Source of the DNA: a virus
Strand: one strand, 5' to 3'
IMG/VR virus record: IMGVR_UViG_3300023284_002928
Span: 1 to 20,465 of that record
DNA length: 20,465 nt
The stretch's first letter is position 1, and each line of letters starts with the position of its first letter. The notes under the pieces were generated by a model that was not told the DNA's origin, did not search any database, and saw nothing but the letters and a program-made list of their open reading frames with translations. Shown here one piece after another: positions 3,165 through 16,754 of this stretch. Both the position numbers and the translations under genes were made by a program.

Positions 3165-4315
3165 TGGAAAAGGCGATTGTTGACATATTAGAAAATGACG
3201 CAAATGTTAGCGCTGTAGTGGGTGATAGGATTTTTCCCATATTCATCCCCCAAGAAAAGGCATTCCCAGCAATAACCTATGAAAGAATTGATACAGACCC
3301 CAAGGATACAAAAGATGGATTAAGCACATTGGACATGCCTTTAATTGATATTGATCTGTGGGGCAAGGATTTTAAGGTATTGAAGGATTTAGCAAGGGAT
3401 GTCAGGAAGGCGCTGGATAGATTTTCGGGCAGAAGGCAATCAGTAGAAATACAATCCATTCAATTTGACAATGAGATTCAGGCATTTTCAGACGAAAAAG
3501 AACTTCATCATTTGACACAGACCTACCGGGTACGACAAACTGGACCCGTATTTGATGTAAATGCAAGCAACTTTTTCAGGTCAGCAATAATAACAGATTT
3601 GACAGAAAAGAATGCTGTTGATATTATGGTATCATCTTTAAAGGATAAAAAAATAACAGCCAAAACCTTATGGGATAAAATGAAATGCCTTAATCCAGTC
3701 AGTGCTACAGGTCTGGAAGCTGCAAGATTTAATTTAAAAAACCCGAACAAATTTAAAATGGATTGGTTCGAAAATCCCACACATGCCCCAAGTGGTGTTG
3801 CGGGCAATGCAGTTGATGCTTATGGAGATTTAAACTACAATCCTGTTACGGAAGGAGATAGTATTACTGATTGGTCTTTTGGGGTATATGTCAATACAAA
3901 CGTAAATAATGGCATAGATATAGGAACACTTAGTTTAGCTCCAACAAAATCACAGTTAATTAGTTCAAGAAGCGCAGATTTTTTTATTTGGAGATTAACT
4001 GATGGTGCACGTTTATCAGCAAATATAGATTCAAAAGGGTTTTGGATTGTAACGGTTGACTCAACAAATGAAACAAGTTATAAAGACGGTGTGCAAGTAA
4101 ATCAATTTCCCATTGGAATCGATGCTTTTGCGGATTTAAACATGTTTGTATTAGCCGTCAATACAGATGCTGGTGCTGGTGTTGGTTCTTTTACAGGTAG
4201 AAGACACGCACTTTATTTCATAGCTGAAAAATTAAACGCCGCAGAGGTAGCAGCACTTAATACCATTGTACAGACATATCAAACAAATGTGATAAGCGGA
4301 GGACGTCAAGTATAA
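3164..4315 (+). CDS. Tail-completion protein (DUF3168) fused to a LamG-like domain
   Basis: A 383-aa protein with two parts. Residues 1-127 match the DUF3168/gp17-like tail completion family: VDILENDANVSAVVGDRIFP, the FPAITYERI strand, a DIDLWGKD segment, an RDVRKALDRF helix and a YRVRQTG end. Such proteins are normally about 110-140 aa. Residues 128-383 are an additional beta-rich domain. It starts with a helical ITDLTEKNAVDIMVSSLKDK lead-in, then LWDKMKCLNPV and NLKNP, and ends with GRRHALYFIAEKLNAAEVAAL, the closing strand and helix typical of LamG/concanavalin-like folds in Bacteroidota phage proteins. The fusion would place a sugar- or surface-binding domain at the neck or tail terminator. 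The domain identity of the C-terminal part is by eye; the fusion is one continuous frame. Confidence 0.8.
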   Translation: MEKAIVDILENDANVSAVVGDRIFPIFIPQEKAFPAITYERIDTDPKDTKDGLSTLDMPLIDIDLWGKDFKVLKDLARDVRKALDRFSGRRQSVEIQSIQFDNEIQAFSDEKELHHLTQTYRVRQTGPVFDVNASNFFRSAIITDLTEKNAVDIMVSSLKDKKITAKTLWDKMKCLNPVSATGLEAARFNLKNPNKFKMDWFENPTHAPSGVAGNAVDAYGDLNYNPVTEGDSITDWSFGVYVNTNVNNGIDIGTLSLAPTKSQLISSRSADFFIWRLTDGARLSANIDSKGFWIVTVDSTNETSYKDGVQVNQFPIGIDAFADLNMFVLAVNTDAGAGVGSFTGRRHALYFIAEKLNAAEVAALNTIVQTYQTNVISGGRQV

Positions 4316-4364
4316 AAAAATAATTTATTATGAAATAACAAATAAAATTATTAAATTTGCTGTT

Positions 4365-5812: not shown

Positions 5813-8540
5813 ATTTCAACGTTCCACAAAAAATATTGAGAGAAGATTAGCCAAGATAGGAAAACAGATGACGAAAGTGGGCAAGCAGATGTCAATTGCC
5901 GTATCTGCTCCATTGGCATTATTAGGAGGATTAGCTGTTAAGACCTTCGCTGATTTTGAGCAAGAGATGGCAAAAGTACAAGCCGTCTCCGGAGCCACAG
6001 GAAAAACTTTTGATGATTTAAAAAAACTTGCCGAGGATTTGGGCAAGTCTACACGATTTACCGCAGGTGAAGTAGCAAATCTTCAACTTAATTATAGTAA
6101 GTTAGGTTTCGTTCCATCAGAGATACAAAAAATTACAGCATCAACACTTGATTTAGCATTGGCAACTGGTGAGGATTTAGCTGATAGTGCAGAAGTTGCC
6201 GGCGCTACTTTGCGTGGCTTTGGATTGACAGCCGAAGAAATGCCCAGAGTCATTGACGTAATGGCTCTTTCTTTTAGTTCATCAGCTTTAGAACTAACAA
6301 AATTCAAGGATTCCATGAAGACTGTTGCCCCTGTCGCAACAGCTGTTGGAGCAACTTTAGAAGATACCACAGCCACACTTGGTATATTGACAAATGCTGG
6401 TCTTGACGCATCTACCGCTGGGACATCATTGAGAAATATTTTTATAAGATTAAAAAAACAAGGTATAACATGGGACGAGGCAATGAAAAAAATTAGGGGT
6501 TCCAGTGATAAACTAACAACATCTGTGGAATTATTTGGTGTTAAATCAGCAACAGCTGGTCTTATAATAGCAGAGAACGAAGGGGAAATAAGCAAATTAA
6601 CCGTAAGTCTTGAAAATGCAGAGGGCTCCGCTAAAAAGATGGCAAAGATTATGGATGCTACCCTGAAAGGATCAATGCTCAAAGTAAAATCAGCATTAGA
6701 GGGATTGGCAATTTCCTTTGGTCAAGTGCTTGCTCCAACCGTAAAATTCATAGGCGAAAAGATAGCAATACTCGCAAATAAGTTTGAGGCATTATCACCT
6801 ACAACAAAGAAATTTGTCCTTATAGCTGCTGGAATAGCAGCCGCTATTGGTCCTGCATTGGTCGCCCTGGGCTTTTTGGCGACAACTATTCTTCCTGCTC
6901 TCATATCTGGTTTTGCAATATTGACTGGTCCCATAGGATTAGTGATATTAGCAGTAGCCGCATTAACTGCTGGCATCATAGCATTTAGCAGAGAATCTAA
7001 AAAGGCAAGGAATATTCAGGAACTGATGAATGATGTTAGTAAAGATGCCCAAAAAGCCATCACAAGTGAAGTAATAGAATTGAGAAAGTTATTAAGAATA
7101 GCAGAGGATGAGAGATTGTCAAAAGATGACAGATTAAAAGCGATAAAAAAACTTAATGAGATTTCGCCAGAATACCTGGGCAATTTGACTTTGGAGAATA
7201 TCAAAACAGATGACGCAAGAATAGCTACTGAAAAATATAGGGATGCTATTTTGGCAAAGGCAAAAGCACAGGCAACAAGCAATAAAATAAGCAAACTTAC
7301 AGAGGAATTATTAGAAATAGAACTTAAAGAGACGGAGGAATTTATAAGTTTTTTTGAAAAAATGGCTGGTGGATTTGCCACTTCAAAAGAACAACTGGCA
7401 AAATTCAATGAAGAATTAGAAAATAAAGCTATTGAAAGGAAGGCAACAGAAGTCAAAAGATTGGGGGATGAGATAAATAGATTAATCACAATAGAATTCG
7501 CTGCGGAGACAAGCACCGATAATTTAACTACAAGCACCGATGATTTAACAAAAGCCGATAAAAATCTTACTGATACTATCAGTTCGGGAAATAAAGTTAA
7601 AGAAAAATTCATAGAAGGTACGCTGGGAGCTATTAAAGCACAAATGGCATCTATTGAAAAAGAAAAAGATTTTGCCTCTACAAGAGCAGAAACCATTAAA
7701 ATAGATGAACGTCTTAATGAACTTGAGGAAAAACGTGCAAAAATATTGGGAATAGAAACAAGTGCAATGAAAAAATCACGTGAGGAGGAGGAAAAAAGGC
7801 AAAAAAAAGAAATTGAAATAATAAAATTTACTCCTGAAGAAATGGAAGAATTTGACGTTCCATTTGATAGTAAAAAAATAAAGGAAGAAGCAGAAAAAAT
7901 AAGAGGTGAAACATTAACTATTTTTCAAAAATTAAAAGAAAATTTTGATGGGATTGTTAATAAAATACAAGAAAAATTTCAAGACTTTGCTGAAATTTCA
8001 GGGCAAATATGGGGACAGATAAGCGACATTATTGGTCAAAGCATTGAGAATAAATTGATTAAATTGGAAAATTCACACGCCAGGGAGGTGGAAATGATAG
8101 AAAACTCAAGATTGAGTGAGGAGCAGAAACAGGCAGCTATTCTAAAATTGGATAAAAAAACGGAAAAGGAACGAAAAAAATTATTGAGAAGACAAGCTAT
8201 ATTAGCCAAAATTAATGCAATATTTAATGCAACAATAAATGCAGCAGCTGCGGTTGTCAGAGCATTGGCAACAGGAGGTCCCATATTGGCAGCAATTGTT
8301 GGAGCGTTGGGCGCCATCCAGATAGGCGTAATAGCTTCCCAGCCAATACCTCTCCAGGAAGGTGGCATCATAACACGACCAACAACAGCAATTATTGGAG
8401 AGGCGGGACCGGAGGCAGTTATTCCATTGAGTAAAATGGGAGATATGGGATTTGACAAGGAATTAACGGTTAAGATAACCGCAGAGGATATTGATCTGAT
8501 ATTGAAACGCAGGGAAAAGCGGCTATCCTTTACCTCATAG
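5718..8540 (+). CDS. Tail tape measure protein (TP901-like)
   Basis: A 940-aa protein, the largest in the window, that sets tail length and passes through the tail during ejection. The N-terminus (VVSANTAGFTSGMEKARAS, then LAKIGKQMTKVGKQMSIAVS-APLAL) and the VSGATGKTFDDLKKLAEDLG region match the TP901-type tape measure core. A hydrophobic block at about residues 365-424 (with IGPALVALGF and GPIGLVILAVAAL) could span membranes. Residues 425-850 are charged, mostly coiled-coil helix. The end has QEGGIITRPTTAIIGEAGPE at 879-898, a common tape measure tail. The ATG at 5718 gives the expected N-terminus, although it overlaps the chaperone fusion by 95 nt. The stop at 8540 directly abuts the next ATG. 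Confidence 0.92.
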   Translation: MAGIVSSMTAVVSANTAGFTSGMEKARASTSRFQRSTKNIERRLAKIGKQMTKVGKQMSIAVSAPLALLGGLAVKTFADFEQEMAKVQAVSGATGKTFDDLKKLAEDLGKSTRFTAGEVANLQLNYSKLGFVPSEIQKITASTLDLALATGEDLADSAEVAGATLRGFGLTAEEMPRVIDVMALSFSSSALELTKFKDSMKTVAPVATAVGATLEDTTATLGILTNAGLDASTAGTSLRNIFIRLKKQGITWDEAMKKIRGSSDKLTTSVELFGVKSATAGLIIAENEGEISKLTVSLENAEGSAKKMAKIMDATLKGSMLKVKSALEGLAISFGQVLAPTVKFIGEKIAILANKFEALSPTTKKFVLIAAGIAAAIGPALVALGFLATTILPALISGFAILTGPIGLVILAVAALTAGIIAFSRESKKARNIQELMNDVSKDAQKAITSEVIELRKLLRIAEDERLSKDDRLKAIKKLNEISPEYLGNLTLENIKTDDARIATEKYRDAILAKAKAQATSNKISKLTEELLEIELKETEEFISFFEKMAGGFATSKEQLAKFNEELENKAIERKATEVKRLGDEINRLITIEFAAETSTDNLTTSTDDLTKADKNLTDTISSGNKVKEKFIEGTLGAIKAQMASIEKEKDFASTRAETIKIDERLNELEEKRAKILGIETSAMKKSREEEEKRQKKEIEIIKFTPEEMEEFDVPFDSKKIKEEAEKIRGETLTIFQKLKENFDGIVNKIQEKFQDFAEISGQIWGQISDIIGQSIENKLIKLENSHAREVEMIENSRLSEEQKQAAILKLDKKTEKERKKLLRRQAILAKINAIFNATINAAAAVVRALATGGPILAAIVGALGAIQIGVIASQPIPLQEGGIITRPTTAIIGEAGPEAVIPLSKMGDMGFDKELTVKITAEDIDLILKRREKRLSFTS
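7509..7550 (+). repeat. Two-copy 21-nt tandem repeat inside the tape measure gene
   Basis: ACAAGCACCGATAATTTAAC-T (7509-7529) is followed directly by ACAAGCACCGATGATTTAAC-A (7530-7550), differing at 2 of 21 positions. It encodes TSTDNLT-TSTDDLT, followed by a weaker third unit (KADKNLT). In-frame repeats of 7 residues fit the heptad nature of the coiled coil. Confidence 0.85.
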
Positions 8541-14523: not shown

Positions 14524-14732
14524 ACGGTAGTGGCGGAATAGGTAGACGCTAATTTAGGCGGAGTAGGGTTATAGTCCCGGAGTAACAAACTCGACCCTTG
14601 CCGAATCATCAAAGGGACATGCAGGGTGACTATACGAGTAATCCCTACGGGGGCAGTTAATACTGATTTGGACTTCAATGTTCATGGTAACTTGCTGTCA
14701 TAGCATGCTCTCGTCAAATCCCTGCCTACCGT
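14524..14732 (+). ncRNA. Structured RNA with tRNA-Leu-like ends (interrupted or degenerate tRNA-like element)
   Basis: The 5' end reads ACGGTAG (14524-14530), then TGGCGGAATAGGTAGACGC (14531-14549), almost the bacterial tRNA-Leu D-arm consensus. The 3' end CTACCGT (14726-14732) pairs perfectly with the 5' heptamer like an acceptor stem. A T-arm can be formed from GCAGGGT (14621-14627) and TCAAATCCCTGC (14714-14725), but with an 86-nt insert in the T-loop and a 6-bp stem. The interior has further pairings: GTAGGG (14563-14568) with CCCTAC (14643-14648), TATAGTC (14570-14576) with GACTATA (14628-14634), CCCTT (14595-14599) with AAGGG (14612-14616), and CAGT (14654-14657) with ACTG (14662-14665). 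No proper anticodon arm was found, so it is not an ordinary tRNA. It does not match tmRNA, and I could not fit a group I intron. Confidence 0.5.
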
Positions 14733-14740
14733 TTTATTAA

Positions 14741-14849
14741 TTGCCCCGCAGGTGAAGTGAGTGGTCTTTTTACTTTAGTTGCCCATTCTAACTCATAGAT
14801 AGAGCACACGCTAAAGTATTTTCAGCCATGTTCATTTCCGGCGGGGTGA
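14741..14849 (+). ncRNA. Second structured RNA element between holin-like gene and 43-aa gene
   Basis: CCCCGC (14744-14749) pairs with GCGGGG (14841-14846), extended by wobble and A-U pairs outward (14741-14743 with 14847-14849). Inside, ACTTTAG (14772-14778) pairs perfectly with CTAAAGT (14811-14817), enclosing a 32-nt loop that holds CTC/GAG (14792-14794, 14802-14804). AGGTGAA (14750-14756) can pair, with wobbles, to TTCATTT (14831-14837). There is no open frame across it, and the element ends 21 nt before the next ATG. It may be a leader for that gene or part of one larger RNA with the tRNA-like element upstream. Confidence 0.5.
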
Positions 14850-15132: not shown

Positions 15133-15531
15133 TTAGTCAAAAGACCGATCATCTAAGCACTCTCCCCTCTCTGGGGGACTTGAAGCATCAAATAAAGTAA
15201 CCATAGTTGGTCGGGCTGTGACCAGGTTGTCGGTGGGGGGACAGTGCCTGGGTTTGTCATGCTTACGTTGTGCTATCATAATCACTTCCTTTTTTGATGA
15301 CGCAGGTGGGATGGACTGAACCTGCTGTGTTAAATCTACTTTCTTTAACGGGACCACTAAATATTTAAGAAAGTCCTTTGCGGCGAATTCCTTATTGATG
15401 TATTGTGGTACTTGTAGTCGTTCACTATATGCTACCGGATTTTCGTAGACGGCAAATCTTTTCGGGTTCAAGGCATTTTGAATATAGAACTTACCGCTTT
15501 TTCCTATGAAAGATATTGGTTTGCTGGTCAT
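15133..15531 (-). CDS. Unknown protein, third gene of minus operon
   Basis: A 132-aa protein beginning in an ATGA overlap (15528-15531) with the upstream 49-aa gene, which supports translation. The N-terminal 55 residues look globular (SFIGKSGKFYIQNALNPKRF, then NKEFAAKDFLKYLVVPLKK). The C-terminal half from about residue 70 is polar and low in hydrophobics (RKHDKPRHCPPTDNLVTARP), probably disordered. No family was recognised. It runs against the flanking late and early genes, so it belongs to a separate transcription unit. An early control or host-takeover role is plausible but unproven. Confidence 0.6.
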   Translation of the reverse strand: MTSKPISFIGKSGKFYIQNALNPKRFAVYENPVAYSERLQVPQYINKEFAAKDFLKYLVVPLKKVDLTQQVQSIPPASSKKEVIMIAQRKHDKPRHCPPTDNLVTARPTMVTLFDASSPPERGECLDDRSFD

Positions 15532-15677
15532 TTCTTTTTTGTTTTAAACTTAAAATTTTTACCTAATACCCACAATAACATATCTCTACTAACTTTTGCA
15601 GAAGGGACTAACGCATTAAGTGTTTCTAAATCATTAAATATTTTAATCGCTTCTTTAATTTCTTTTTCTGTTCTCAT
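15528..15677 (-). CDS. 49-aa unknown protein, second gene of minus operon
   Basis: ATG at 15677 on the minus strand, TGA at 15530-15528. The sequence is helical and charged: MRTEKEIKEAIKIFNDLETL, then VPSAKVSRDMLLWVLG, ending KFKTKKK. It starts 1 nt after the stop of the zinc-ribbon-like gene and overlaps the next gene by ATGA, so the three genes are clearly co-translated. Family unknown. Confidence 0.6.
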   Translation of the reverse strand: MRTEKEIKEAIKIFNDLETLNALVPSAKVSRDMLLWVLGKNFKFKTKKK

Positions 15678-15678
15678 G

Positions 15679-15909
15679 TTATTTATCTTTAGTGGTTAAT
15701 TGTTTTATGACTAAATTATCTTCATCATCGTAGCTCCAGCATTCAGGACAATAATGCTTATCATCTTCTATGTGCCATTCACCATCTTCATCTAAATATG
15801 CCTTAATCCCACTATCATCTGTAAATGCAACAAATCCCATACCTTCATCCTCCCATTGTTTGCCACAATTATCGCACTTACATCCATACATTGTCATTTC
15901 TACAATCAT
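15679..15909 (-). CDS. Zinc-ribbon-like acidic protein, first gene of minus operon
   Basis: A 76-aa acidic protein with two cysteine pairs, CKCDNCG (about residues 10-16) and HYCPEC (about 52-57), as in small zinc ribbons. Between them is a compact acidic part (GFVAFTDDSG, DEDGEWHIEDDK). Similar small proteins are frequent in Bacteroidota phages with unknown function. A second in-frame ATG (MTMYG, at 15897) could be the start; the ATG at 15909 is kept because it is the first after the leader. A structured leader and a promoter lie upstream on the minus strand, so it is the first gene of a three-gene unit. Confidence 0.7.
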   Translation of the reverse strand: MIVEMTMYGCKCDNCGKQWEDEGMGFVAFTDDSGIKAYLDEDGEWHIEDDKHYCPECWSYDDEDNLVIKQLTTKDK

Positions 15910-15933
15910 GATTATTTAGTTTAATTAAATAAA

Positions 15934-16029
15934 AACCCGCACCAGTGCCACTAATGTTGGTGATCCCAGCAAGAGAAACCTCAAATGGTAAAAGTACGGG
16001 TTCTAAATTTTAGCTTTTTCTGTTGCTGG
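15934..16029 (-). promoter_or_regulatory. Pseudoknot-capable 5' leader with terminator-like hairpin (candidate riboswitch/attenuator)
   Basis: In minus-strand RNA order, CCAGCAACAGAAA (16029-16017) pairs with TTTCTCTTGCTGG (15978-15966), 12 of 13 positions. AACCCGTAC (16002-15994) pairs with GTGCGGGTT (15942-15934), 9 bp with one U-G wobble. The two helices interleave, which makes an H-type pseudoknot possible. The second helix is followed by TTTTATTTAATT, so it resembles an intrinsic terminator just before the start at 15909. On the + strand the wobble becomes an A-C mismatch and no comparable U-run follows, so the minus strand is the functional one. No known riboswitch class was recognised. 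Confidence 0.6.
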
Positions 16030-16045
16030 AATACTTTGATAACCA

Positions 16046-16077
16046 CAAACATAAAACTTAATTTCTTAAAAACAAAA
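16046..16077 (-). promoter_or_regulatory. Bacteroidota-type promoter for the minus operon
   Basis: Minus-strand TTTTG (16077-16073), 19-nt spacer, TATGTTTG (16053-16046), matching TTTG-N19-21-TAnnTTTG. The start would be near 16041, giving a ~130-nt leader that contains the pseudoknot element. Confidence 0.65.
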
Positions 16078-16092
16078 CTTTTAAGGAAAAAA

Positions 16093-16125
16093 TTTGGAAT
16101 ATTTCAGATAGTTTTTTTAACTTTG
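16093..16125 (+). promoter_or_regulatory. Bacteroidota-type promoter for the small RNA
   Basis: TTTG (16093-16096), 21-nt spacer, TAACTTTG (16118-16125). The predicted start near 16130 coincides with the first base of the first hairpin of the candidate small RNA. It is back-to-back with the minus promoter. Confidence 0.65.
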
Positions 16126-16129
16126 TCAA

Positions 16130-16215
16130 GTCGGTGGTGCGACAGAGCCTTAATTGGTTCTCCTTTGTTTATTATTCCCCGTCAGACTACCAAGCATCTG
16201 GCGGGGATTTTTTTT
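16130..16215 (+). ncRNA. Candidate ~85-nt small RNA, three consecutive hairpins
   Basis: A promoter ends 5 nt upstream and a strong intrinsic terminator closes it, with no credible gene between. Hairpin 1: GTCG (16130-16133) with CGAC (16140-16143), loop GTGGTG. Hairpin 2: AGAGCC (16144-16149) with GGTTCT (16156-16161), loop TTAATT. Then a single-stranded CCTTTGTTTATTATT-like linker and the terminator hairpin. The + strand frame 15985-16251 that crosses it is not credible, because it includes the terminator and promoters. The function is unknown; antisense or protein-binding action is possible. Confidence 0.6.
16177..16215 (+). terminator. Intrinsic terminator
   Basis: CCCCGTCAGA (16177-16186) and TCTGGCGGGG (16197-16206) form a 10-bp stem (one G-U) with loop CTACCAAGCA, followed by A and eight T. 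It is the best intrinsic terminator in the window, on the + strand only. Confidence 0.9.
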
Positions 16216-16225
16216 GTAATAAAAC

Positions 16226-16256
16226 TTGTATCTTACAATAACTTTATTTAGCTTTG
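16226..16256 (+). promoter_or_regulatory. Promoter with overlapping operator, upstream of HTH gene
   Basis: TTG (16226-16228), 20-nt spacer, TAGCTTTG (16249-16256). The expected start, 5 nt on, is 16261, the A of the ATG, so the mRNA would be leaderless. The inverted repeat TTGTA-TCT-TACAA (16226-16238) covers the upstream element and probably serves as an operator. Nearly the same 42 nt recur at 16519-16560. Confidence 0.7.
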
Positions 16257-16260
16257 CAGT

Positions 16261-16446
16261 ATGAATCTTAAAGATTTAGAAAATTTAATGTCTGTCTCTC
16301 AATTTGCCAGGAAGCTTAAGGTAAGTCAACAATGGATATGGCAATGTGTACAAGATAGCCGGTTATCAGTTGTAAGGGTTGGCGGTGTACCCTACATAAA
16401 TAAGGACGCAAAAATAAAACCCAAAGGCAAAAAAATTCCTATTTAA
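16261..16446 (+). CDS. Small helix-turn-helix DNA-binding protein
   Basis: A 61-aa protein of the MerR/excisionase-like HTH kind. MSVSQFARKLKVSQQWIWQ (about residues 10-28) gives the two helices of the HTH with a serine before the recognition helix, then VQDSRLSVVRVGGVPYINKD as the wing-like strands. The C-terminus is basic (KIKPKGKKIP). It lies just downstream of one copy of the TTGTA-N3-TACAA site and just upstream of the other. It is therefore a good candidate for the protein that binds them, repressing itself and the early operon; this is inference. The predicted transcript is leaderless. Confidence 0.75.
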   Translation: MNLKDLENLMSVSQFARKLKVSQQWIWQCVQDSRLSVVRVGGVPYINKDAKIKPKGKKIPI

Positions 16447-16519
16447 CATAATTTATTACAAAATCGGCTAAATTTGGCTGGAAACGGCAAAAATAAATTG
16501 AAAATAATCGTACTTTTAC

Positions 16520-16550
16520 TTGTATATTACAATTAAATTATTTATCTTTG
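16520..16550 (+). promoter_or_regulatory. Early promoter with second copy of the operator
   Basis: TTG (16520-16522), 20-nt spacer, TATCTTTG (16543-16550); predicted start near 16555. The inverted repeat TTGTA-TAT-TACAA (16520-16532) is the second operator. 35 of 42 bases in 16519-16560 match 16225-16266. It is followed by the leader ATTAATTAATTAAAAAATC before the ATG at 16578. Confidence 0.75.
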
Positions 16551-16577
16551 TAGTATTAATTAATTAAAAAATCAATT

Positions 16578-16754
16578 ATGAAAACAGGAACTTTGACATC
16601 AAACGGTATAATGTTTAAATGGTGCCTTACAACTCAGCAAGGTGCTCATTATGATTTATTTCCAAGCAAACAGCATACTGAAAAGGACATATATATAGCT
16701 AAGCTGTATATGTGGGACAATTTTGATCCAGTTACACTTAGAGTTATTAAGTAA
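16578..16754 (+). CDS. 58-aa unknown early protein
   Basis: ATG at 16578, TAA at 16752-16754, first gene behind the early promoter. It begins MKTGTLTSNGIMFKWCLTTQ and continues QQGAHYDLFPSK, HTEKDIYIAKLYMWDNFDP. It looks like a small beta-rich fold with one cysteine. No family recognised. Its first 13 nt, ATGAAAACAGGAA, are identical to those of the gene at 17118, perhaps a translation-initiation preference. Confidence 0.6.
   Translation: MKTGTLTSNGIMFKWCLTTQQGAHYDLFPSKQHTEKDIYIAKLYMWDNFDPVTLRVIK

Follow-up and report, generated by a model that had tools for sequence, protein, structure and literature searches.

Early phage transcription has few known regulators that consist of RNA alone, and the control RNAs of Bacteroidota phages are almost uncharted. 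In phage T4, the operator of gene 32 is joined to the ribosome site by a long unstructured stretch and binds the SSB that is encoded there. Among the RNAs that act on termination, put of phage HK022 binds the zinc-binding domain of the RNA polymerase beta' subunit and suppresses terminators that lie downstream. It is about 70 nt long, is composed of two stem-loops and makes the polymerase pass later terminators (PMC9378689). IsrK of the Gifsy-1 prophage, a phage RNA that acts in trans, occurs in a short form and a read-through form, and its locus also carries a Q-like antiterminator (PMC4825925). In the Bacteroidota, which are without Shine-Dalgarno sites, the folding of the mRNA close to the start tunes the initiation of translation (PMC6847099). 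The consensus and position of their primary promoter form have been reported (PMC7366714; PMC9723704).

The window studied here, i.e., the whole stretch of 20,465 bases that was analysed, is an uncultured virus record (IMGVR_UViG_3300023284_002928) and carries on its minus strand a new leader motif, which is probably an attenuator. A promoter of the Bacteroidota sigma-A type, TTG-N19-TATGTTTG, was predicted from the sequence at 16046-16075 (minus strand; TTG at 16075-16073 and TATGTTTG at 16053-16046), and six sites of this type are present in the window vs 2.3 expected. TAnnTTTG sits at -12 to -5 (PMC9723704), and hence the start of the RNA is predicted at about 16041-16039, which would put the 5' arm of the first helix (P1a) at the extreme 5' end of the transcript. 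The predicted RNA 5' end is AUCAA (16036-16040, minus strand), identical in all four members of the motif.

An earlier note on this DNA had described two interleaving helices in the leader, and both were recovered from the window sequence. In the first (P1), 12 of the 13 positions between 16029-16017 and 15978-15966 are paired, the sole miss being C16022/C15973. P1 is longer than first noted, with three extra outer pairs that extend it to 16032/15963; its 5' arm AUUCCAGCAA occupies 16023-16032 (minus strand), with pairing that reaches 16017 beyond the mismatch at 16022, and its 3' arm (P1b, UUGCUGGGAU) occupies 15963-15972 (minus strand). In the second helix (P2), 16002-15994 pairs with 15942-15934 at nine of nine positions, one of the pairs being U-G; its arms are AACCCGUAC (P2a, 15994-16002, minus strand) and GUGCGGGUU (P2b, 15934-15942, minus strand). 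P1b and both arms of P2 were read from the window sequence together with the relatives described below. The arms interleave as a pseudoknot that spans about 105 nt and has long loops of 20-31 nt. The conserved unpaired bases are AUCAA, UUUGAG and ACCAAYAUUA; UUUGAG lies in loop 2 (15980-15985, minus strand), is invariant in the four members and ends 7-8 nt before the 3' arm of P1. A terminator-like U-rich run (15935-15927, minus strand) follows P2, shares its last U and lies about 25 bases ahead of the ATG at 15909, as had been noted.

The leader was found in four distinct phages, all of them uncultured: the window, L002 (L003 has the same leader sequence), L125 and L299. Two were located independently of the helices, L002 through its zinc-ribbon protein and L299 through a pattern derived from an unrelated hairpin DNA element; L125 was located by a pattern of UUUGAG and the end of P2b, so that part of its P2b was preselected. 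All four have the order P1a, P2a, P1b, P2b and U-run with the same promoter spacing, P1a starting 12-13 nt past the -7 promoter element, and in all four the U-rich UUUAUUUA stands directly 3' of P2. The U-run of L002 is interrupted by a C. The promoter element of the window also precedes the leaders of L002 and L299, and the version in L125 is TATCTTTA. The arm sequences mostly differ between members and the pairing is retained. The leader of L002 (TATGTTTG, P1 AGCGGGAAGCA/UGCUUCCCGCU, P2 ACCUCACAA/UUGUGGGGU, then UUUAUUUAUG) is unlike that of the window in sequence and alike in plan.

An architecture scan of 7,941 promoter-like sites in 2.82 Mb returned the four members and two other matches, one probably coding sequence that matches by chance and the other a possible analogue. 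The latter, at 6478 (+) of L322 in the phage of L051, has a true terminator hairpin with a loop (CTACCACAA) that is paired to the 5' end predicted there (TTGTGGTAG), at p = 0.0022 in a mononucleotide shuffle, a single-site value for a site picked from the scan. Nothing significant was obtained when the window leader DNA was compared with phage and plasmid records. A pattern of P1 only gave 34 matches in IMG/VR, all unrelated; the exact promoter with UUUGAG gave the known phage only; a looser loop-3 pattern gave no new member among the matches listed; a strict-pattern scan of a genome collection gave one chance match, in Rossellomorea; and a lysis-gene alignment search gave the same phages only. 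The motif thus appears, so far, to be limited to one group of uncultured phages.

The helices were evaluated by a shuffle test in which the 3' arms were fixed and the upstream part was dinucleotide-shuffled. For P1, the p values were 0.0076 (window), 0.0002 (L002), 0.0002 (L125) and 0.0004 (L299); for P2, they were 0.0048, 0.073, 0.040 and 0.048, respectively, the significance of P2 in each relative taken singly being marginal. Both helices together were reached by none of 5000 window shuffles. In a hand alignment of the arms of the four members, 71 of 72 cells are paired (98.6%), 12 of 18 pairs are altered on both sides and none of 500 shuffles was equally good, but the arms were picked for pairing, so that these figures overstate the case and the test with fixed 3' arms is the fairer one. 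Sliding the alignment by 1-3 columns destroys the structure. The strand polarity that had been argued from the U-G pair in the window extends to the relatives, with six G-U vs no A-C across the four members, and the structure is therefore assigned to the minus (leader) strand. Both helices are kept in the relatives by compensatory change, so that the refutation set out in the earlier note, homologous leaders that conserve neither helix, did not come about. The knot-free fold of the whole window leader is only mildly better than that of shuffles (z = -1.97); the window sequence by itself would be unconvincing and it is the relatives that make the case. Pairing, compensatory conservation, fixed spacings and the position between the predicted promoter and the first gene were all computed. 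Judged from these sequences, the leader is very likely a real RNA control element.

Three open reading frames follow the leader in the window, all on the minus strand. The first (15679-15909) encodes 76 amino acids with two Cys pairs, a weak zinc-ribbon match and a match to phrog_17873 (unknown function); the second (15528-15677, 49 amino acids) is without a significant family match; and the third (15133-15531, 132 amino acids) is without a family and has a DNA relative in L299, where it stands behind the HTH operon. The earlier note had taken the Cys pairs as a hint of metal sensing. This hint fails, since the first gene is different in each phage: a zinc ribbon in the window, a member of the unknown family phrog_10841 in L002, an HNH nuclease in L125 and a weak Q-like zinc finger in L299, the last with weak matches to Q-type antiterminators (Pfam below the cut-off; phrog_127, E = 4e-6). 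A tie between the leader and the zinc-ribbon gene was likewise rejected, because the gene for the 91% identical relative of this protein in L002 and L003 comes second after the leader, with another gene before it. The operon of L002 continues to a DnaD-like helicase loader (phrog_2514) and that of L125 likewise reaches a helicase loader, a relative of the former, so in these two relatives the leader heads an operon of the replication type. A match to the end of the first gene of L299 (AACUAAAUAAUCAUG) is present at the window junction, UUUAUUUA-AUUAAACUAAAUAAUCAUG, and suggests that the window has lost its first gene and that its leader now adjoins the former second gene. Such a loss would account for the odd 24-nt gap between P2 and the AUG in the window and would leave no reason to invoke zinc. 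In L048, the closest phage by its exonuclease, the cassette is absent.

Other elements surround the leader. A long hairpin at 14743-14846 (+) of the window, between the lysis genes and the next operon, recurs at 2172-2245 of L002, at 2781-2856 of L125 and on the minus strand of L299. It has near-invariant arms (GCAGGTGAAGTGAGTGGTCTTTTTAC and GTATTTTCAGCCATTCATTTCC) and a fixed internal loop, has no match in Rfam and may mark the end of the late operon. The region at 14524-14740 (+) is noncoding and contains tRNA-Leu-like letters (TGGCGGAATAGGTAGACGC), though it is not called as a tRNA; at the matching place, L305 has a true tRNA by Rfam (4256-4329). A common element, GGGCG(GA)CTTAACCAAATCCTAAC...CAAGTATYTGATCATCCCGCCC, is located ahead of the operon in L002 (about 2260-2330) and L299. 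Divergent from the leader, a small RNA with a strong terminator at its end is predicted at 16130-16215 (+), with a promoter at 16094-16125; it is kept in L299 with compensating changes, and a sub-threshold NsiR1 match overlies it. Its pairing with the leader is not significant in the window, where 26% of shuffles do equally well (3% in L299). Near-identical 43-nt direct repeats at 16226 and 16520 (+) form tandem promoters before the HTH gene and the gene after it. With respect to the late genes, the block of leader, small RNA and HTH gene (15900-16590) has the opposite orientation in L299, so that the leader there faces the other gene set; in the comparison of the window with L299, the block showed no strong inverted repeats at its flanks.

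The attenuator-like look of the minus-strand leader was supported, with a G+C stem and a U-run in a leader that stands between the predicted promoter and the first gene. Since, in addition, the P1 and P2 folds are close in three of the four members and the U-rich UUUAUUUA comes after P2, an attenuator is the most economical reading, and there is a little better than an even chance that a conserved cis-acting leader of uncultured Bacteroidota phages works here as a transcription attenuator. Transcription would start at about 16040, and the first 10-15 nt (P1a) would pair with P1b once the latter had been transcribed. P2b would appear about 25 nt after P1b and pair with P2a to give a terminator-like hairpin with P1b inside its loop, after which the U-run and, at once in three of the four members, the first start codon would follow. 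The stop or read-through of RNA polymerase would be set by the way in which P1 and P2 share the RNA, as a pseudoknot or as alternate folds. We infer that transcription yields this RNA, that termination is due to P2 and that P1 modulates P2; a translation block is possible as a second effect of the leader.

Knot-free folding of the nascent RNA up to the end of P1b gave P1 a probability of about 1.0 in all four members. For the full-length leader, the energy of the P2 fold less that of the P1 fold came to -2.0 kcal/mol in the window, -6.4 in L002, +3.5 in L125 and -1.1 in L299, and the model thus places the two states close to each other in three of the four members. P1 and P2 have no sequence overlap and are compatible as a pseudoknot, so they need not be mutually exclusive. 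The loop of P2, at about 50 nt, is much larger than an ordinary terminator loop and is a real difficulty for termination by P2. P2 was not called by a simple terminator scan, and an inner extension of it, which would strengthen the terminator, was not beyond chance (p = 0.23-0.45).

The first of the rival explanations is a translational operator, in which the pseudoknot, alone or protein-bound, would lie over the site where translation of the first gene begins and keep ribosomes away, in the manner of the T4 gene 32 leader. The first AUG is indeed 8-9 nt past P2 in L002, L125 and L299, and an initiation tuned by mRNA structure would fit the Bacteroidota (PMC6847099). However, the AUG of the window is 24 nt from P2, a U-run behind a G+C stem is needed by a terminator and not by an operator, and no shared self-binding product is evident, given that the first genes have no relation to one another; this explanation is unlikely, though it stands ahead of the other rivals. 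Next to it, and unlikely as well, comes a stable trans-acting small RNA of about 110 nt (promoter, pseudoknot and terminator) as the main product, with read-through being secondary, as in Gifsy-1 IsrK. The promoter of its own, the compact fold and the terminator-like end argue for such an RNA, as does the Q-like antiterminator of the IsrK locus (PMC4825925), given the weakly Q-like first gene of L299. Against it, a gene stands immediately behind the leader in three of the four members and the leader keeps its place in front of an operon; outside the leader, the four phage contigs show no conspicuous exact complement to it of at least 12 nt; and the arms differ freely in sequence, as a pairing seed would not.

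A new class of ligand or ion riboswitch, with AUCAA, UUUGAG and ACCAAYAUUA as the binding pocket, would explain why unpaired bases are conserved within a pseudoknot next to a terminator-like hairpin and why no Rfam class matches; but the first genes share no common pathway and the motif was found only in this phage group, the one Rossellomorea match of the strict scan being due to chance, which makes such a switch very improbable. A leader-peptide attenuator was also considered and rejected: the ATG frames of three members (MPQSSGIK-stop, MIQVYINLISHA-stop and MDYTFCIKKN-stop) are mutually unrelated by eye, and by eye the window leader has no ATG reading frame. Chance pairing, or a DNA-level repeat such as operator half-sites misread as RNA, is the least credible explanation, for although inverted repeats are abundant in AT-rich phage DNA and the folding z-score of the whole leader is just -1.97, the order and spacing are alike in four phages and the wobbles are confined to one strand.

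The attenuator reading can be taken one step further, to a protein-free switch of early phage transcription in the Bacteroidota in which the nascent 5' end, by pairing into the first terminator's loop, sets read-through of the operon. Folding order alone, or a contact with RNA polymerase, would then tune read-through, and the device would be an RNA-based antitermination of a form unrelated to HK022 put. This version is improbable, ranking after the small RNA and before the riboswitch; if no phage protein were needed for it to work, it would represent a second type of RNA antitermination device. If the leader instead binds a ligand or a protein, it would offer a way to learn what these phages sense. 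A compact motif with strong paired changes provides a testable model.

In keeping with the earlier note, in which no known riboswitch class was recognised, the leader matches no described class: in the window and in its relatives, the leader strand has no match in Rfam 15 at or above the gathering cut-off, and permissive thresholds gave no match to preQ1 or other pseudoknot riboswitches either. It resembles these in having a 5'-leader pseudoknot beside an expression platform and differs in its loops of 20-31 nt and in the lack of a common downstream pathway. With leader-peptide attenuators, it shares short reading frames over P1a to P2a in L125, L299 and L002, but the window has no ATG frame and the peptides are dissimilar. 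Like the T4 gene 32 operator, it is a pseudoknot near the 5' end of a phage mRNA, whereas here three members have the AUG only 8-9 nt past P2 and none of the first genes encodes an SSB. As in Gifsy-1 IsrK/AntQ, there is a phage RNA with a terminator and possible short and read-through forms, and a Q-like gene is nearby in L299 only; for the leader, however, a trans target was not found and a sequence relation is not evident. HK022 put (putL and putR) is, as the leader may be, a cis-acting RNA by an early phage promoter that affects termination without an evident phage protein, but the leader described here spans about 105 nt with its two helices interleaved, and one of the two is terminator-like in its own right.
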